From IMG/VR virus record IMGVR_UViG_3300042455_002512, positions 1 to 44,364 of that record: a DNA stretch of 44,364 bases, one strand, 5' to 3'. How positions within the stretch are numbered: the stretch's first letter is position 1; every line of letters begins with the position of its first letter. The DNA is from a virus. The notes beneath the pieces are model-generated. The model was not told where the DNA came from. It did no database searches and worked only from the letters and a program-made list of their open reading frames with translations. Position numbers and translations under genes: made by a program. Below, piece by piece: positions 24,729 through 34,177 of the stretch.

Positions 24729-25547
24729 ATGAGATTAAAATCAGTTAACGAAGGAATTACAGAAACCGGAACTCCGGACATGAAGTATTATGCATTTGAT
24801 TGGGATGACAATATTTTGATAATGCCAACAAAAATAATTCTTAAAGATAACAAGAATGATGAAGTTGGAATGTCTACCGAAGATTTTGCGGAATATAGAA
24901 TGAAAATTGGTAAAGAACCTTTTGAATATAATGGACATAACATTGTAGGGTTTGCTGAAAATCCATTTAGGTATTTTAGTGTGGAAGGAGATAAACAGTT
25001 TATAATTGATTCTCTATTAGGAAAACCAGGTCCTGCTTGGTCTGATTTTGTAGAGTCTATTAATAACGGTTCTATTTTTTCAATCGTGACCGCTAGAGGA
25101 CATACACCTGAAGTTATGAAAGAGTCAGTTTACAATATGATAATTTCAAACCATATGGGTATAGATTCTAATGAACTTCTAAAAAATTTAGAAAAATTTA
25201 GAGACATAGAAGGTATTGGTAAATCATCAAAAAAAGAAATGATAAAAGAATACTTAAATATGTGTCGGTTTTACCCTGTAACTTATGGTAAAGGAAGTGC
25301 GGTTAGTCCCGAAGAAGGAAAAATTAAAGCTTTAAATGAATTTGTGGGATATGTTAAAAGAATCTCTAAACACATAGAGAAAAAGGCATATTTAAAGAAT
25401 AGAATATCAAATAATTTTGTACCTACAATTGGATTTTCTGATGATGACCTAATGAATTTGGAAAAAGTTAAAAGTCATTTTGAAAATGAACCAGATAATA
25501 TAATTAAAACGATTTCAACTGCAGGAGGAGTAAAAAAACCTTATTAA
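24729..25547 (+). CDS. HAD-superfamily phosphatase-like protein
   Basis: A 272-residue protein with haloacid-dehalogenase motifs: FDWDDNIL with nucleophile Asp24 and general acid Asp26, IVTARGHTPEVM as the motif II threonine region, a Lys-rich stretch (KIKALNEF) that may give the motif III lysine, and GFSDDDLMNL as the acidic motif IV that binds magnesium. Such enzymes remove phosphate from small molecules, proteins or nucleic acid ends. The gene lies between sheath and tail tube, preceded by a terminator and a weak late-type motif. A DNA-end or nucleotide phosphatase would be plausible, but the sequence does not identify the substrate. Confidence 0.75.
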   Translation: MRLKSVNEGITETGTPDMKYYAFDWDDNILIMPTKIILKDNKNDEVGMSTEDFAEYRMKIGKEPFEYNGHNIVGFAENPFRYFSVEGDKQFIIDSLLGKPGPAWSDFVESINNGSIFSIVTARGHTPEVMKESVYNMIISNHMGIDSNELLKNLEKFRDIEGIGKSSKKEMIKEYLNMCRFYPVTYGKGSAVSPEEGKIKALNEFVGYVKRISKHIEKKAYLKNRISNNFVPTIGFSDDDLMNLEKVKSHFENEPDNIIKTISTAGGVKKPY

Positions 25548-25664: not shown

Positions 25665-26153
25665 ATGGCTGATTTATTAATGAAAATGCCCATACCTTAT
25701 GAACCCAAAAGGAATAACCGATTTATTTTACGTTTTCCTTCTACATTAGGTATAAACGAGTGGTTCGTTGAATCTGCCGCTCGACCACATATTACGATTG
25801 TTAGTACTGAGATTCCATTCTTAAATACCTCAACTTATGTTGCTGGTCGTTTTACATGGGGAGCTCTTAATGTAACTTTTAGAGACCCTATTGGTCCTTC
25901 CGCTTCACAAGCTCTAATGGAATGGGTTCGTTTATGTGCCGAATCAGTTACAGGTCGTATGGGTTATGCTGCAGGGTATAAAAAAAATGTTGACATTGAA
26001 ATGTTAGACCCAACAGGAGTCGTGGTTGAAAAATGGATATTGGAAGGAACTTGGATGATGGACGTAAACTTTAATGCATTGAGTTATTCTGACGATAAAG
26101 TTTCAACAATCACCGCTCAACTTAGAATGGACCGTTGTATCTTGGTTTATTAA
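25665..26153 (+). CDS. 19: Tail tube protein, gp19-like
   Basis: A 162-residue protein, the same size as T4 gp19 (163). It has the tube pattern: NNRFILRFPSTLGINEWFVESAARP at the N-terminus, a strand with GRFTWGALNVTFRDPIGPSA, and a C-terminal half with VDIEMLDPTGVVVEKW, an ILEGTWMMDVNF strand and a closing TITAQLRMDRC. It polymerises into the rigid inner tube through which DNA passes. It has its own strong late promoter and a terminator after it, which fits high expression. The sheath gene is 1 kb upstream, separated by the HAD-like gene. Confidence 0.92.
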   Translation: MADLLMKMPIPYEPKRNNRFILRFPSTLGINEWFVESAARPHITIVSTEIPFLNTSTYVAGRFTWGALNVTFRDPIGPSASQALMEWVRLCAESVTGRMGYAAGYKKNVDIEMLDPTGVVVEKWILEGTWMMDVNFNALSYSDDKVSTITAQLRMDRCILVY

Positions 26154-26181: not shown

Positions 26182-26207
26182 CCATATTATTAATATGGGA
26201 TTTTTTG
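26177..26207 (+). terminator. Rho-independent terminator after tail tube
   Basis: AAATCCCATATTA and TAATATGGGATTT form a perfect 13-bp stem around a single T, followed by TTTTGTTT. It starts 24 nt after the tube stop codon. Confidence 0.8.
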
Positions 26208-26213
26208 TTTATT

Positions 26214-26339
26214 ATGGAAAACAATACAGGATTTACATGTAATACTTGTGGTAAAGTTTTTGAAACTGAAGAAGAGTTTCTTAATCGACATAAAAAAAAT
26301 TCCGAAAATCAACCGAAAGATAATCTAAATAAGGAATAA
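26214..26339 (+). CDS. 41-aa protein with a Cys2His-type zinc-finger segment
   Basis: A very short gene directly before the gp26-like gene (its TAA ends one base before that ATG region, 26341). The product has FTCNTCGKVFETEEEFLNRH: two cysteines separated by two residues, the conserved Phe and Leu of a classic C2H2 finger, and a first His at the right place. The second zinc His expected three to five residues later is missing (KKNSEN follows), so it is an incomplete or C2H-type finger. The tail is acidic and Asn/Lys-rich. The close fit to its neighbour supports translation. The partner, DNA or protein, is unknown. Confidence 0.65.
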   Translation: MENNTGFTCNTCGKVFETEEEFLNRHKKNSENQPKDNLNKE

Positions 26340-26340
26340 A

Positions 26341-27096
26341 ATGGACCCAAGTCTTTTAAACGCCGCTACAGAAAATTTTAATCTACCTCATGACATGGTA
26401 GTACTTCCAACTGGAGGTATATTTTATAAATCTAAAAAAAAGTCTATCAAAGTTGGGTATCTAACCGCTAGTGATGAGAATTATTTAATGTCAGGACTTG
26501 GTAATAGAGAAAATATAATTATGACTCTATTACGAAATAAAATTTACGAACATGATTTAAGACCTGACGAGTTATTAGAAGAAGACATTCAGGCAATTCT
26601 TTTATTTTTAAGGAATACATCTTTTGGTTCCGAATATATAGTAAACTTAGACGACCCCAGAACTGGAAAACAATTCGAAGAATCTATCATACTTGACGAA
26701 ATTAGTATAAAAAAAGGATTGGTACAACCAAATGAGGATGGAACTTTTACTACTAAATTACCTGTGTCAGGTGCAAATGTAAAAATAAGACCATTAGCTT
26801 TTGGTGAACTATTTGATATAGACAAAATTGTTGAGAATTATCCTAAAGGTAGAGTCGCTCCAAAAGTAACTTTGAAATTACAAAAACAAATCGTGGAATT
26901 GGAAGGACAAAATGATTTAGGTAAAATTAGTTTGTTTGTAGACCAATTACCTATCGGTGATTCGAAATATATTAGAAAGTTTTTAAAGGACAACGTGCCA
27001 TCATTAGATTTAAACAAGAAAGTAACTACCCCATCAGGAGAAAAGATAGATGTTGACATCGTCTTTGGGGTCGAATTTTTTCGCCCTTTCTTCTAA
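26341..27096 (+). CDS. Baseplate/tail assembly protein, T4 gp26-type
   Basis: A 251-residue protein with the pattern of the T4 baseplate family that includes gp26: LPTGGIFYKSKKKSIKVGYLTASDENYLMS, then a helical part in which residues are lost to LL (DELLEEDIQAILLFLRNTSFGSEY). In T4 it belongs to the baseplate hub pathway. The usual Cys-pair zinc site in the middle of this family is absent here (no Cys), while a stand-alone zinc-finger gene precedes it. A 62-codon ORF in the +1 frame overlaps its 3' end and the tape measure follows, the classic arrangement of tail assembly chaperones. The family call is moderately sure. Confidence 0.65.
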   Translation: MDPSLLNAATENFNLPHDMVVLPTGGIFYKSKKKSIKVGYLTASDENYLMSGLGNRENIIMTLLRNKIYEHDLRPDELLEEDIQAILLFLRNTSFGSEYIVNLDDPRTGKQFEESIILDEISIKKGLVQPNEDGTFTTKLPVSGANVKIRPLAFGELFDIDKIVENYPKGRVAPKVTLKLQKQIVELEGQNDLGKISLFVDQLPIGDSKYIRKFLKDNVPSLDLNKKVTTPSGEKIDVDIVFGVEFFRPFF

Positions 27097-27238
27097 CTAT
27101 AGAATTTCTTTAGCGAACGAGTATATAATTCTATCAAAAAATCTACATACGTCATATTCAGATTTTTTGATTATGCCAACTTATTTTAGAAAATATTTGA
27201 TTGATAAGGTTATCGAGATTAACACACCTAAAACCTAA
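27050..27238 (+). CDS. Short +1-frame ORF overlapping the gp26-like 3' end (possible frameshift extension)
   Basis: The ORF begins at ATG 27050, inside the last 47 bases of the gp26-like gene, and ends 30 nt before the tape measure. Beyond the overlap it encodes about 51 residues ending in SDFLIMPTYFRKYLIDKVIE, a helical, amphipathic segment like the short extensions made by frameshifting in other tail chaperones. It could be translated alone or as a fusion of about 298 residues by a +1 shift near 27079-27082. Such a small conserved-looking tail between chaperone and tape measure is expected by analogy with lambda G/GT; T4 gp51, next to gp26 in T4, may be the counterpart. I infer this from arrangement. 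Confidence 0.6.
   Translation: MLTSSLGSNFFALSSNYRISLANEYIILSKNLHTSYSDFLIMPTYFRKYLIDKVIEINTPKT
27076..27084 (+). other. Candidate +1 programmed frameshift site (TTT TTT C GC)
   Basis: In the gp26-like frame the codons read TTT TTT CGC. If Phe-tRNA in the P site slips from TTT to TTC, the next codon becomes GCC in the +1 frame and translation continues into the 27050-27238 ORF. CGC is a rarely used arginine codon in this A+T-rich sequence, which could favour a pause. The site is 13 nt before the gp26-like stop. Confidence 0.45.
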
Positions 27239-27268: not shown

Positions 27269-29080
27269 ATGATGATGGCAACTACTGCAGAAACCGTACA
27301 AGATTTTTATGATTTTATATCAACTTTAGGAAAAAAAAGTGTTGAAACTTTTACAGAGAGTTTTGTACCCGGACTAAAATCAATTTTAAATACTGTACAA
27401 GAAGTTGATGCTCAGGCGGTTGCAGTTGCAAAATCATTTGGACAAGGAAGAGAGAATATTTTGTCAATCAAAACATCTTTGGTTGATGCAGCTTCTTCCG
27501 TTGAAGCTTTGGGTGGTAAATTTTCTGATGTCGCGGATATTCAAACCAGTCTAGTTAAAAGTTTAAATAGAGCGGTTTTGTTAAGTTCCGATTCATACGA
27601 AAGTATTTTTGCAACTATAAAAGTAACTGGCCAAGAAGCGGGTACTTTATTTACTCAGTTCAAAAATATAGGAGTATCGGCATATGGTGTTGCTGATGGG
27701 ATGCAAAAAATTGTTGATACCGCAAGACAACAGGGATTAAGTGTGGAGGCGGTGAGTAAACAAGCCGTTGATAACATGGAATCTATGAATAAGTATAACT
27801 TTCAAGGAGGTGTTGACGGATTGGCTAAAATGGCGGCCCAAGCAACTAGTTTAAGAATTGATATGGCAACTACTCTTAATTTTTCAAATGATTTATATAA
27901 GCCCGAAAAGGCGATTGAAATGTCAGCAGCACTCCAAAGACTTGGGGTTACTCAGTCTGAATTATTGGACCCATTAAGATTAATGGATTTATCTATTAAT
28001 GACCCAACAGAACTTCAAAATCAATTAGTACAAATGACTCAACAATTTGTAACTATGAATGAGGCCGGACAATTTGAGATTGCGCCTGAGGGAAAACTTA
28101 GAATGAGAGAATTACAAGAAGCCACTGGAATTGCGTATGGAGAGTTAACAAAAATGGCTTTAGGTGGTGCCGAATTAGAAAATAAGTTATCTAAGATAAG
28201 ATTTCCTGAGTTTATGACTGATGACCAGCAAAAAATGATTGCAAACCTTGCTGAAATGAAGGATGGTGAATATGTTGTAACAATTGATGGTAAAGCAGAA
28301 AGTTTAGAAGATTTATTATCTAGAACTGATAGTACTGCAGAACTTGAAAAAATTCTTGATGCCGCCAAACCTAAAACTATGGAAGATTTGGCATCCGAAC
28401 AATTGGATATGCAAAAAAGTATGGAAGCTAGTATGGCGAAAATCGCTAATAGAACATCAAGAGCACTGGCAACATCAAATATCATTGAAGAATTAGGAAA
28501 TGCGACTAGAGAAGGATACAAGGGATTGACAGATATTATAACTGAAAGGGATGTTATGTCGGCAAAAAGTATTAGAGAATTAATAAATGTTAATGGGGAG
28601 GTTATTGGAGATGTTGCTGAAAAAATGTTTAAGGGAGAAGATGTTGATTTGGGAGGTGTTGTTGCTGAAATGGGTGAAAAATCTGGTGGCATTTTTGCAG
28701 AACAACTTGAAGGTTTGGGGATTAATTTTGCAGAACAAATTAAGGGGTTACAAGAATCTGATAATCGCGTTGCGGAAGTAATGTCATCACTTTATGAAAA
28801 TTTAGCAGATGTTATTAAAGAAAAAACTGGATATGATATAAGGCCGGCCGATACCATGAACAGAAATAGAACTGATACCACAACAAATCAACAAGATAGA
28901 ACGCAAACACAAAATATAAATTCTACATCAACTGTCGATGTTACTATAAAATTAGATGTTCCGGCAGGTATGTCAGAAAGTGAAGTCATAAACGCATTAA
29001 GAACTGAACAAATCAAACAAGAAATAGTAAAAATTGTTGAGGAGAAACATCCTGACCTCAAGTTAAAACCAGCGCAGTAA
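27269..29080 (+). CDS. Tape measure protein
   Basis: A 603-residue, mostly alpha-helical, Ala/Glu/Lys-rich protein with no Cys. Long heptad-like stretches such as VQEVDAQAVAVAKSFG and DIQTSLVKSLNRAVLL are typical of tape measures, which set tail length and are released from the tail before DNA passage. The length is close to T4 gp29 (590 residues), so a tail of T4-like length is expected. The C-terminal 100 residues are Thr/Asn/Gln-rich (residues 530-555), then a short conserved-looking helix. It starts with three consecutive ATG codons (MMM), so the exact start is ambiguous by two residues. It follows the gp26-like/frameshift pair, as tape measures usually do. Confidence 0.8.
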   Translation: MMMATTAETVQDFYDFISTLGKKSVETFTESFVPGLKSILNTVQEVDAQAVAVAKSFGQGRENILSIKTSLVDAASSVEALGGKFSDVADIQTSLVKSLNRAVLLSSDSYESIFATIKVTGQEAGTLFTQFKNIGVSAYGVADGMQKIVDTARQQGLSVEAVSKQAVDNMESMNKYNFQGGVDGLAKMAAQATSLRIDMATTLNFSNDLYKPEKAIEMSAALQRLGVTQSELLDPLRLMDLSINDPTELQNQLVQMTQQFVTMNEAGQFEIAPEGKLRMRELQEATGIAYGELTKMALGGAELENKLSKIRFPEFMTDDQQKMIANLAEMKDGEYVVTIDGKAESLEDLLSRTDSTAELEKILDAAKPKTMEDLASEQLDMQKSMEASMAKIANRTSRALATSNIIEELGNATREGYKGLTDIITERDVMSAKSIRELINVNGEVIGDVAEKMFKGEDVDLGGVVAEMGEKSGGIFAEQLEGLGINFAEQIKGLQESDNRVAEVMSSLYENLADVIKEKTGYDIRPADTMNRNRTDTTTNQQDRTQTQNINSTSTVDVTIKLDVPAGMSESEVINALRTEQIKQEIVKIVEEKHPDLKLKPAQ

Positions 29081-29119: not shown

Positions 29120-32100
29120 ATGTCAGAGAGCACTTTATCATTTGCATCTAGTGAATCTTTTCGTAAATCACTTATTGTAAGAAATTTACAACCGTATTCG
29201 GTTACGGGTGTTTATACTCCACCGGCTGGCGACATAACTTATGAGTATAATCAATCTGATTTTTCGGTTATTGATTCACCCGACAAATTGATTGCAAAAA
29301 ATCCGTTTGTTAACAAACTATATCCTCTTAATGAATTTGGACCATCGGGTGGATTTGATTTTAATATTAATTATAACGGGTCATTAGTACCTGTAAAACC
29401 TTCAGGAGAACCTTATTATCCATTAATTAATAGTCCCTTAATCGGGTTGAGTAATTATTGGTTAAATGAATTAGTTACGGGGCCTGCAAATCAGAACAGC
29501 TTCATACCCGACGGAGGATTTAAATTTTTATACGAGGTTGACGACTTACCTAATTTAAACAAATATTTTTCACCTTATTGGGACCCACCAACGTTTGTTC
29601 CGTCATTTTATAGTCCATATGAGATATTAAGTTCATCTAACCCAGTTGGTTCTGACGGACCATTGTCACAAGATTCTTTTATTGCTCGTTTGGGAGCTCA
29701 AACATTAAGGGAACTTTTTGTTGAGAGAATTAATCTTGAAATTTATCAAAATACTGTAGGTGCGGTAAACTTGGCGAGTCTTCAGGACCCATTTGAAGCT
29801 AGTTTGTTAATAACAGGACAACAACCTTTAGTTTATAGAAATTGGAGAATCACTGTACCTGAAAATCCAATATTAGCGGTAGTTGATTTTGCAACAAGAT
29901 TGGCTGGAGCTTATTGGCCCGTATCACCGATACCTGGTGATTATTTTGATGAAAATACTAATGGTAATTTACAGACTAGTCAAACATCAACAGCGCTAAA
30001 CGTAGTTAATAATTTAACGGGTGGGTTTTTAGGACCGATTTTAAATATAACTAGAAATCCATCTCAGATATTTTTAGCAAATACAGGAAACGGACAAAGG
30101 TCTGCATTATTCAATAATATAGATTATAATAGATATAGACCGGCTTATGACAGAGGATTATTAGGTACCTTGGCTCAAGGATTAACAAATCTTTTAGCCT
30201 CGGCAATTAATCCGAATAATGGAACTTTGATAGGTGGTTATTATGTTGGAAGTAATACTTCAGAACCTTCACAAATAAACTCACCACCGAATCAGTTACC
30301 TATAAATCCTTACGGACAACAAGTTCAAACACCTGTTTATGGTCCATCTGAATTGGCAATTTTATATGAAGGAAACCAAGAAGTTCTTAATTTTGGATTA
30401 GCCGGCAAATCTTTATCCGATGGAGGAGGAATTGACGGTCAATTTGTTTGGACATCACCAAAATATAAAGGAAATGCGGGTTATAAACCTACACCAGGAG
30501 GAGGCACGGGAAGTTTAGATGAACAGTTCAATTTAGTTAGTGGTAATTACACTCGAGGTTCATCAACAAATGTTGATTTTAAGGATAATTCAATATTAGA
30601 CCAAACTCAAAGGTTAATTGAATCTGCCGACTTAGTTGAAGGGATTGCCCGATTAAAACACGTAGGTAACGCAATCAATCAAGTTTCTAAAGTATTCAAT
30701 GATGGATATAAAGAAATGACTAAAGGGTCTAAAGTTTTATCTTATGTTGATAATACAACTGGAACTCAAGCTGGTGTTGAGTATTGTAGAGTTTTTGCAA
30801 AAGATACACCATATTATACCTACTCTGATTTACAAAAGACTGACGGAATTACTAATTCAGGGAGAAGGTTTTCATATTCCGTGTTAGATAACACCTTCAA
30901 TTTGAATATTTCTCCAACCAAAAATCCTGGGTCAACAAATATTATTGCGGATGGAAATAACGGAACAGGTGGTTATGCTAAAAAATACATGTTCTCTATT
31001 GAAAATTTAGCTTGGAGAACATCCAGTAGACCTGGTTATACTTATGATGAACTTCCAACATGCGAGAAGGGACCAAACGGAGGTAGAGTTATGTGGTTTC
31101 CTCCATATGATTTAAAATTTAACGATACAAGTAAACCAAGTTTTTCACCTACTTCATTTTTAGGTCGACCCGAACCAATTTATACATATAAAGATACTAG
31201 TCGTACTGGAAGTTTAAATTGGACTATTATAGTTGACAGTCCTTCAATTATGAATTTAATTATTGAAAAACAATTGAAAGGTGCCGCCAAGGAAAGAGTT
31301 GATTCAATAATAGATTCCTTTTTTGCGGGGTGTGTGAAGTACGATATATATGAGTTAGCCCAAAAATTTAATACAATACCTGCCAAGGATTTATATACCT
31401 ACCAAGAAATTTTGAATAATCCACAATTAACCGAAGAAGAGGTTAATTTCGTGGTTGAATCAATACCTAAAGACCCTGAAGTTTGTACATCTGACGTTTG
31501 GGGTGACGTTCCTGAAACTAAAAAAGTGTCTAATGAGCCTGAATTAGAAGCATTTGCTGATACTTATACTAATTTGTCATTTTATTTTGATAATAATGTA
31601 CCTGGACCTAATAATGGTACAACGTCAAATGAGGATTATTTGAGTGCTTACAACTCATATGTTAGTAATAAACAAGTTTACGGAGCTCAGGCTAATAATT
31701 TATTCAATACTGATGATTTTAATGGTAATGTTCTTGATTTCTTTGATAATGTTATAACAAATAATTTTGAAAAAATTAATAGTGGTTCATCTTGTATGGT
31801 ACAAGATTTATATAAGATATTATCAGAACAAAAGGGAACTATTGTTATAACTTTAGAAGGAGCGGCGTCGGCTAAGGCAACGCCTGAATATAATCAAAAA
31901 TTATCCGAAAGAAGAATTGATTCTGTAATAAAATACTTACAAAACTATTCTGAAGGTGATGTTTCGTTTAAAAAATATTTAGAAGACGGTTCTTTAAAAA
32001 TAAATTCGGCGGGAGGGTCTGGCGAAAATACAACAATTCCAGTTGGGGAGGGAAACATATCCCAAGACCCTATTAATTGTACTGAAGAGACTAAAGATAA

Positions 32101-34177
32101 GAATGGTAAAACTAATCAAGGTTCGTTAATTTATTCTGTCAGTGCTATGGCATGTAGAAGAGTTAGGGTTACTAGTATTTCTTATACCGATATACCTAAA
32201 GAAGAAACAATTATGGTTAATAAAGTAATTGGACAAACAACTGAAATAGAAAATCCCCCATCTGATAAAACATCAGGACAAGGTATTACCCCTCAGTTTC
32301 CAAAACCACAACCAACCGTAACAATTGAAAAGAAGTTAAAAGAAGGTATTAGTAAAAAAATATTAAGAAATTTATTGAGTGAGTGTGATTATTTTGAGGT
32401 GCTAAAACAAGATGTACCAATGGTATATGATTCAATCAAAGAAAAAATTAGATACTTCAATCCAGCCTTTCACTCTATGACACCTGAGGGTTTAAATGCT
32501 AGATTAACTTTCCTTAATCAGTGTACAAGACCTGGAGAAACAGTTCCAACTATAGGTGCCGATGGTAAACCAAAGACAAATGATGCTATCAATACTTCTT
32601 TCGGAGCTCCTCCTATTCTAGTATTAAGAATCGGTGATTTCTATAACTGCAAAATAGTACCTGATAATGTTGCATTTACATATGAACCATTAATTTATGA
32701 CATGAATCCTGAGGGGATTGGTTTACAACCTATGATTGTAAAAGTTAATATGAGTTTTTCTATGATTGGAGGTCACGGACTTAAAGAACCGGTTGACCAA
32801 TTACAAAATGCATTGTCGTTTAATTATTATGCTAATACTGAAATTTATGATGAAAGGTCAACATGGACTGACGATTCGTGGAAAGTGATTGATAAGAAAT
32901 TAATAGACTCAATCGAACAATCAGAACAACCGGCAACAGTGGCTAATGTGGAAAGTCAAAGAACTAATGACGGGGGAACAACAATTGGTGAAATTATAAC
33001 TAATATACCTGTTGAAAGTGGTCAAACTGGTGAAATTGCATATCAAAAAATAATGGATACCCTGTTTGACCAAACAAAACAATATATTGATGCGGTTCCT
33101 AATCTTTTAGAAAAAATAATGTTAAATACAAACCAAGGTATTGTTCAGATTATAAGTAATGATAGATTATATAGTGAAGGGTTACTTAATGTTGATTTAG
33201 ATGAAGTTGGTTCGGCCCCAATTTACGGAGCGCCAAATAAAATGGATGCGAAAATAAAAGAAATTTTTGATAAAGTAATATTAGAAATTCAGGACCAAAC
33301 TAACCCAATTATTAGTCAATTAAATACTATTGAATGGCAACCAAAGGATTTATCGGCGGTCATAACCAATATGGTTGATTATATTAATTCTCTTTCTTCC
33401 GAATTCTCAAATGGAATATTCACCACCATACAGGAATTAGTTTTGTTGGAACAAGATTATGTTCAAAATTTAAGAAAAATAAATTTGGTTTCCGACTTAA
33501 CTGACGGTAAAATTATTGATAAGGGAGTTCCAAGACCTTATACTCTTTCGGGAACTGATAAGGTTAGTGAATCAACAACCATTGATGATGATACTATAAC
33601 AACAACAGATGACGAATTATGGAATGACATTGCGAGATTACAATTAACTTTAGAGGAATATTATGAGTTTTTACAAAAAAAGAAGATATTTGAACCTATT
33701 GGTGATGTTGTGGTAAACTTTAAACCAATATATCCTTATTTTATTAACTCAGGTGAAAGCCCAACACCTGAAAAAACATTCTTTTTAGTTATAGGTAGAA
33801 TTTTTTACAATAGAACAAAACGACAAGAGTTTGTTGATGCAATTATTAAAGGAGATTTGGTTAACGTAAAAGACCCACAAAAATTAAAAAAGAAATTTGA
33901 GGATATTGTTGACGAGTTGTCCAAAGAGTATAGTAAAGAAATTGATGATGAAGAAAAATTATATAAAGACTTTAAAAAAAGTACTGAGTTTAAAGATTTT
34001 TCTGAAGGATTGGACGAAAAACTATACCCTAAAGGAAAAACTCGTAAATTTACTTATACCACGGTGCCTGGAACTGATGAGGGAAATCAAAAAACCGCAA
34101 TCACTAATTTATACAGCACAATAAATGTTGATGAGGATACAAAAACTTATATCGGTAAAGTTAAATTCAATTCATAA
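29120..34177 (+). CDS. Giant baseplate protein with inserted OmpA-like domain
   Basis: A 1685-residue structural protein. Residues about 620-760 contain a region with YMFSIENLAW, GPNGGRVMWFPPYDL and GRPEPIYTYKDTSRTGSL that recurs in baseplate proteins of Bacteroidetes T4-like phages. Residues about 885-1012 are an OmpA-like peptidoglycan-binding domain: TLEGAASAKATPEYN, then QKLSERRIDSVIKYL and a closing RRVRVTSISY. Residues about 1150-1250 (LRIGDFYNCKIVP, DMNPEGIGLQPM, IGGHGLKEPVDQL, QNALSFNYYAN) form a conserved baseplate-tube module. The C-terminal 300 residues are Asp/Lys-rich and helical. It is followed by the gp53-like and hub genes. A baseplate position is well supported; the cell-wall contact role comes from the OmpA fold. 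Confidence 0.75.
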   Translation: MSESTLSFASSESFRKSLIVRNLQPYSVTGVYTPPAGDITYEYNQSDFSVIDSPDKLIAKNPFVNKLYPLNEFGPSGGFDFNINYNGSLVPVKPSGEPYYPLINSPLIGLSNYWLNELVTGPANQNSFIPDGGFKFLYEVDDLPNLNKYFSPYWDPPTFVPSFYSPYEILSSSNPVGSDGPLSQDSFIARLGAQTLRELFVERINLEIYQNTVGAVNLASLQDPFEASLLITGQQPLVYRNWRITVPENPILAVVDFATRLAGAYWPVSPIPGDYFDENTNGNLQTSQTSTALNVVNNLTGGFLGPILNITRNPSQIFLANTGNGQRSALFNNIDYNRYRPAYDRGLLGTLAQGLTNLLASAINPNNGTLIGGYYVGSNTSEPSQINSPPNQLPINPYGQQVQTPVYGPSELAILYEGNQEVLNFGLAGKSLSDGGGIDGQFVWTSPKYKGNAGYKPTPGGGTGSLDEQFNLVSGNYTRGSSTNVDFKDNSILDQTQRLIESADLVEGIARLKHVGNAINQVSKVFNDGYKEMTKGSKVLSYVDNTTGTQAGVEYCRVFAKDTPYYTYSDLQKTDGITNSGRRFSYSVLDNTFNLNISPTKNPGSTNIIADGNNGTGGYAKKYMFSIENLAWRTSSRPGYTYDELPTCEKGPNGGRVMWFPPYDLKFNDTSKPSFSPTSFLGRPEPIYTYKDTSRTGSLNWTIIVDSPSIMNLIIEKQLKGAAKERVDSIIDSFFAGCVKYDIYELAQKFNTIPAKDLYTYQEILNNPQLTEEEVNFVVESIPKDPEVCTSDVWGDVPETKKVSNEPELEAFADTYTNLSFYFDNNVPGPNNGTTSNEDYLSAYNSYVSNKQVYGAQANNLFNTDDFNGNVLDFFDNVITNNFEKINSGSSCMVQDLYKILSEQKGTIVITLEGAASAKATPEYNQKLSERRIDSVIKYLQNYSEGDVSFKKYLEDGSLKINSAGGSGENTTIPVGEGNISQDPINCTEETKDKNGKTNQGSLIYSVSAMACRRVRVTSISYTDIPKEETIMVNKVIGQTTEIENPPSDKTSGQGITPQFPKPQPTVTIEKKLKEGISKKILRNLLSECDYFEVLKQDVPMVYDSIKEKIRYFNPAFHSMTPEGLNARLTFLNQCTRPGETVPTIGADGKPKTNDAINTSFGAPPILVLRIGDFYNCKIVPDNVAFTYEPLIYDMNPEGIGLQPMIVKVNMSFSMIGGHGLKEPVDQLQNALSFNYYANTEIYDERSTWTDDSWKVIDKKLIDSIEQSEQPATVANVESQRTNDGGTTIGEIITNIPVESGQTGEIAYQKIMDTLFDQTKQYIDAVPNLLEKIMLNTNQGIVQIISNDRLYSEGLLNVDLDEVGSAPIYGAPNKMDAKIKEIFDKVILEIQDQTNPIISQLNTIEWQPKDLSAVITNMVDYINSLSSEFSNGIFTTIQELVLLEQDYVQNLRKINLVSDLTDGKIIDKGVPRPYTLSGTDKVSESTTIDDDTITTTDDELWNDIARLQLTLEEYYEFLQKKKIFEPIGDVVVNFKPIYPYFINSGESPTPEKTFFLVIGRIFYNRTKRQEFVDAIIKGDLVNVKDPQKLKKKFEDIVDELSKEYSKEIDDEEKLYKDFKKSTEFKDFSEGLDEKLYPKGKTRKFTYTTVPGTDEGNQKTAITNLYSTINVDEDTKTYIGKVKFNS

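Follow-up and report, generated by a model that had tools for sequence, protein, structure and literature searches.

The window, meaning the whole 44,364-nucleotide stretch of DNA that was analysed (IMG/VR record IMGVR_UViG_3300042455_002512), carries a gene of the T4 gp26/gp51 family between genes for a gp19-like tail tube protein and a tape-measure-like protein, as in the distant relatives that we compared. A short open reading frame (ORF) in the +1 frame overlaps the 3' end of this gene. The features of the locus are as follows:

25665..26153, + strand: tail tube protein (gp19-like), the upstream neighbour (phrog_4542, E 3e-24; PF06841, 26.9 bits, just under the cut-off)
26341..27096, + strand: putative short tail assembly chaperone (TAC-N), T4 gp26/gp51 family, 251 aa (PF12322, 36.9 bits; phrog_150, E 3e-10)
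27027..27033, + strand: 5' arm of a predicted stem, with invariant CCCC, pairing with 27066-27072
27050-27238, + strand: +1-frame ORF of 62 codons, overlapping the last 47 nt of the gp26-like gene
27066..27072, + strand: 3' arm of the stem, with invariant GGGG, pairing with 27027-27033 and ending 3 nt before TTTTTT
27076..27084, + strand: putative slip site TTT TTT CGC, assigned from conservation and codon rarity, the exact step being presumed
27083..27235, + strand: candidate +1-frame C-terminal extension (T-like domain), 51 codons, stop at 27236-27238, assigned from pN/pS and profile matches
27269..29080, + strand: probable tape measure protein, 603 aa, assigned from position and profile-profile alignment

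The PF12322 score of the 251-aa protein lies above the curated cut-off of 24.5 bits and is the single match to this family in the window record; together with the phrog_150 match it upholds the gp26-like identity given in an earlier note on this DNA. That note had also described a 62-codon +1 ORF that runs across the gp26-like 3' end and finishes just before the tape measure, and the coordinates agree: 30 nt separate its stop from the start of the next gene at 27269. The tape measure itself is probable, in that a profile-profile alignment with the tape measure annotated in Flavobacterium phage immuto and relatives covers 261 columns (E 2.4e-5, probability 75%); a single-sequence BLASTP search with the same protein gave no significant match. 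Taken alone, the 62-aa ORF matched nothing in Pfam or PHROGs. Through the overlap, frame 0 reads GTC GAA TTT TTT CGC CCT TTC TTC TAA and the +1 frame AAT TTT TTC GCC CTT TCT TCT AAC, such that a shift from TTT to TTC would yield the junction VEFF-ALSS followed by 51 added residues, the same product that had been proposed.

Elsewhere in the cluster, the gap from the tail tube gene to the chaperone gene holds a 44-aa ORF (26205-26339) with one C2H2-like zinc-finger motif (weak in Pfam, below cut-offs), and a 272-aa ORF (24729-25547), flanked by the probable sheath gene and the tube gene, has no convincing family match in Pfam or PHROGs. Directly after the tape-measure-like gene, a 1685-aa protein (29120-34177) includes an OmpA-like stretch (PF00691, E 1e-4, below the cut-off).

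Conservation and selection at the overlap

The close set consists of the best 80 of 198 IMG/VR relatives which, with the window, make 81 sequences at 63-100% protein identity and 18 distinct site sequences (window counted). An alignment of relatives had been suggested as a check on the slip sequence and the frame offset, and across this set (window plus best 80 of 198) neither varies: TTTTTTCG[C/G]CC and the offset are kept in 81/81, and the frame-0 stop lies 18 nt past the start of the T-run, again in 81/81. The +1 extension is 52-55 codons long throughout these best 80 of 198, one copy being cut by a contig end. For pN/pS we used the 43 distinct sequences in which the gene is followed by a complete extension: the value is 0.316 for the gene and 0.32 for the extension outside the overlap, and reaches 1.06 and 1.35 in the other two frames of the extension. 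By this measure the extension is under purifying selection, and the overlap and extension are, as judged from the alignments, well beyond chance. That the extension goes untranslated, as an assembly error or the tail of a pseudogene, has in our estimate a negligible probability: nothing in its favour was seen, and the extension is kept in 80 other contigs from many metagenomes, with the pN/pS of 0.32 given above. No relatives turned up among the 84,980 bacterial and archaeal species genomes searched.

An extension with a start of its own inside the chaperone gene would be a separate, small, unfused partner. The window does offer an ATG at 27050, preceded by AGGAG at a distance of about 8 nt, most relatives keep a TTG that lies 11 nt ahead of TTTTTT, and the extensions of cyanophage S-SCSM1 and Pseudomonas phage Cygsa01, adjacent ORFs each with their own ATG, appear to act as unfused partners. 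However, the 27050 ATG is missing from most relatives, the phage genes have no Shine-Dalgarno leaders, and in 8/80 relatives (the L003, L004 group; GGGGTAGAATTTTTTC) a TAG closes the +1 frame 2 nt before the slip site, between any start and the conserved part. Because this TAG directly precedes the slip site, these eight have no possible upstream start, and +1 entry must therefore occur inside AATTTTTTC. A +1-frame ATG, GTG or TTG upstream is likewise absent from 28/92 of the more distant immuto-type and LR756508-like loci. We consider an unfused partner unlikely on these grounds; judged from the window sequence by itself, with AGGAG ahead of the ATG, initiation at 27050 would be possible, but it was rejected for the group on the evidence of those relatives whose +1 frame is closed by TAG. 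The earlier note had held that a frameshift would be refuted by a separate, non-overlapping gene with its own start in related phages, or by loss of the slip sequence, and neither condition refuted it: the slip sequence is invariant in the close set, the close group has no such gene and many of the distant loci are startless. In some distant relatives, S-SCSM1 and Cygsa01, the extension does lie in an adjacent ORF with an ATG. As in G/GT-type systems, then, a conserved overlapping ORF lacking its own start extends the putative chaperone gene, both in the close relatives and in 28/92 of the immuto-type and LR756508-like loci.

It is important to note that conservation of the slip site is partly forced by dual coding in two overlapping frames. 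Across the 43 distinct sequences the codon is invariant at only 3/89 gene-body positions with an invariant amino acid, while the last 12 codons include TTT, GGG, TTT, TTT and CCT without any variation and use no Arg codon but CGC or CGG. AGA would be excluded at the site anyway because the +1 frame needs G[CG]C (Ala/Gly). GGG and the preceding TTT are also kept in the TAG-closed relatives, in which the +1 frame is unread at that point, and dual coding is therefore only a partial explanation.

Rare codon and upstream RNA stem

The claim that the slip site precedes a rare Arg codon holds for the window and beyond it. CGC and CGG occur twice each among the 13,643 codons of the window (AGA, 300 times) and are the rarest sense codons of this phage; they are again the two rarest in a 215-kb relative (CGC 14 and CGG 13 of 57,317 codons), in whose contig no tRNA genes were detected. 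In the loci of the 80 relatives the slip site itself supplies 67 of 85 CGG codons and 13 of 17 CGC codons, or 80/102 in total. As in prfB-type sites, the P-site TTT can re-pair in the +1 direction, and here CGC or CGG, the rarest codons, fills the A site; from this rarity we infer that the A-site codon is read slowly.

A slip of two bases backwards on TTTTTT would reach the same frame, -2 and +1 giving an identical reading in the window, and a run of six T residues allows the required re-pairing. Relatives with AAC TTT CTA, TTC TTT CGT, TTC TTT TGG or TTT CTT TGG, however, lack the run that permits -2 and keep a YTT-Y compatible with +1, and an A-site codon nearly unused elsewhere suits +1; a -2 slip is thus very unlikely in our view. 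Slippage of RNA polymerase on the same homopolymer (6 bases, 7 in some relatives) would instead produce a mixed mRNA population. Six bases are short for RNA polymerase slippage, and the arrangement of the frames persists in relatives whose sites, TTCTTTCG or TTTCTTTGG, have no long run, which makes this source of the long form extremely improbable.

The predicted stem between 27027-27033 and 27066-27072 has four invariant C-G pairs, and its outermost pair shows covariation (8 compensatory cells). None of 500 shuffles reached the observed stem score, and slid controls scored lower. The Gly codon GGG in the 3' arm is invariant in 43/43 distinct sequences, and the invariant GGGG, with CCCC as its predicted partner, is 8-9 nt ahead of the P-site codon. 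On 70S ribosomes, +1 frameshifting is stimulated by an upstream hairpin that refolds beside the E site (PMC6321510), so that a stimulatory role for the stem predicted here is plausible.

Gene starts in the window have A/T-rich leaders without Shine-Dalgarno sequences, and in the 215-kb relative such sequences precede 8/134 genes; Bacteroidota genes likewise lack such leaders, and from its leaders the window phage probably has a Bacteroidota host. The prfB +1 site is common in Bacteroidia all the same (PMC8710568). Stimulation by a classic internal Shine-Dalgarno sequence was rejected as the default, given that window genes do without such leaders and that the distance of GGGG is wrong for the prfB geometry. 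For the immuto-type group an ungapped alignment gave no RNA consensus stem; in loci L119-L198 of this type, a GGAGGGG-like stretch, often with a short CCCNATTGGGG hairpin, lies about 20-35 nt upstream of TTTYTTTGG.

Distant relatives and the tie to T4 gp26 and gp51

Phages at 22-42% protein identity also carry a similar extension out of frame. Independent instances of the +1 layout are those of Microcystis phage Mel-JY01, Flavobacterium phage immuto, Bacillus phage SP-15, Listeria phage LIS04, Streptococcus phage GXN1 and LR756508, and the site core in 92 immuto-type and LR756508-like loci is TTT/TTC, YTT or CTA, TGG (one TAC), CCT. A single locus of this type (L108, near 3210; CTT TCA TTC TTG TAT CCT) has the extension in the other frame, which may reflect either a -1 variant or an error in sequencing. 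LR756511 (L084 3670-3930), Agrobacterium phage Atu_ph07 (L090 3770-4010) and Desulfovibrio phage 7757 (L093 3640-3840) combine T TTT TTC with a -1-frame extension, and all three look, from their sites, like -1 versions; the extension ORF of Desulfovibrio phage 7757 lacks any start codon. The window group and the immuto-type loci, by comparison, have the extension in the +1 and not the -1 frame. The adjacent ORFs of S-SCSM1 and Cygsa01 match phrog_634/150.

The records of immuto, SP-15, LIS04, Mel-JY01 and GXN1 give the extension as a piece of its own, in truncated form or not at all. In those of immuto and SP-15 (L087 3824-3934 and L088 3821-3940) it is annotated as a short separate hypothetical protein, probably a truncated call.

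T4 gp26 and gp51 are both members of PF12322. The end of gp26 (...KEFFELL*) falls at the position of the slip site, while gp51 continues for about 48 residues past that point and closes with a motif that resembles that of the extension. Compared directly, the extension and the C-termini of T4 gp51 give a weak profile match (E 3e-4 to 7e-4, probability 26-38%). The extension profile matches the SP-15/GXN1-type extensions at E 3e-8, and these in turn match gp51 and cyanophage C-termini at E 2e-5; on profile comparison the link to gp51 is firmer by this route than directly. The fused form of the relative L004 is predicted with a mean pLDDT of 79.5, the extension forming three helices at lower confidence, and in a viral library its fold matches 'baseplate hub assembly' proteins of T4-like viruses and gp26 of Aeromonas phage 25. 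Sequence and fold searches of the PDB found no relatives.

T4 has two PF12322 genes, as does RB43. Ten related contigs, 96-322 kb long, gave exactly one match each, the eight of them in which the extension was looked for carry it once each, and the candidate frameshifting genomes tested have at most one PF12322 match each. The large relatives thus hold a single PF12322 gene in place of the T4-style pair of short and long genes, and T4 seems to use two separate genes for the purpose.

Proposed mechanism and known frameshift systems

Considering the invariant site and offset in 81/81, selection on a single frame and the missing starts together, the +1 frameshift that the earlier note had put forward as a candidate gains support, and we hypothesize, as a highly probable reading of these sequences, that a programmed +1 shift makes short and long tail assembly chaperones in this T4-like phage. 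The product of 26341-27096 would be the chaperone, and most ribosomes would terminate at 27094 to give its short form. In a minority, with the rare CGC waiting in the A site, the P-site Phe-tRNA would move from TTT (27079-27081) to TTC (27080-27082), and the shifted ribosomes would read 51 more codons in the +1 frame, so that the long form gains a helical domain at its C-terminus. If lambda gpG/gpGT is taken as the model, the tape measure protein encoded by the next gene would be coated by the short form, and the added domain of the long form would recruit tail tube subunits.

Lambda likewise has a short chaperone gene upstream of the tape measure gene and a minority fusion with a C-terminal domain from another frame, neither product being found in virions (PMC5009743). 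The likeness is one of layout, and lambda shifts -1 whereas the window would shift +1 before a rare sense codon. SPP1 17.5/17.5* is also a chaperone frameshift, but -1, at UUUUUUC (PMC6316719). The haloarchaeal myovirus HSTV-2 has a chaperone frameshift too, reported as very likely +1 (PMC5009743). In prfB (release factor 2) a P-site YTT slips +1 onto TTY ahead of a slow A-site codon (PMC8710568), and prfB CTT TGA is one base apart from the immuto-type CTT TGG; the window differs in having a sense codon where prfB has a stop, and in a predicted stem that replaces the Shine-Dalgarno sequence 3 nt upstream.

T4 has been listed as the exception to frameshifted tail chaperones (PMC5009743). T4 shares the PF12322 family with the window gene but uses two genes and no frameshift; PMC10885494 attributes to Vladimirov et al. 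2022 a short gene and a long fusion gene in T4-like phages. PMC12846349 attributes to the same authors -1 polyT signals in T4-like chaperone genes, and both sources credit them with the published tie of gp26/gp51 to G/GT-type chaperones. The sites of T4-like phages and of Vandenendeviridae/Andersonviridae, given in PMC12846349 and taken there in part from Vladimirov et al. 2022, resemble the window in having a T-rich slip site in a chaperone gene and a downstream ORF annotated 'hypothetical', but they are -1, at GTTTTT or polyT, where the window group would be +1.

The earlier note knew of no +1 version at gp26/gp51. The literature, on our search, yielded no conserved +1 site in the T4 gp26/gp51 family, although Vladimirov et al. 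2022 may contain one; the link of gp26/gp51 to G/GT-type chaperones had, as cited above, already been made. Vladimirov, Gautam and Davidson (Virology 2022) reportedly identified the tail chaperone genes of T4-like phages and put forward for them a mechanism that is not frameshifting. Frameshifted chaperones themselves are known; a conserved +1 frameshift at a rare codon in the chaperones of the T4 family would be new.

It is tempting to speculate, and we do so tentatively, that T4-like tail chaperones keep the short/long pair by at least three solutions: +1 frameshifting (the window group, immuto-type and SP-15-type), -1 frameshifting (Atu_ph07, LR756511 and Desulfovibrio phage 7757) and duplication (T4). 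On this possible account the window group has nearly purged two Arg codons, which now serve mostly to signal a pause at one +1 site, and has an upstream stem that refolds in place of the Shine-Dalgarno pairing rarely used by the ribosomes of the probable Bacteroidota host. If the +1 reading is true, distant T4 relatives do frameshift, in the +1 direction, and the two genes of T4 look like an alternative route to the same pair. These phages, which lack Shine-Dalgarno leaders, would then provide a large and abundant natural set of +1 sites that use a sense codon and have a stem upstream, and the gene calls in phages immuto, SP-15, LIS04, Mel-JY01 and GXN1 would be corrected.
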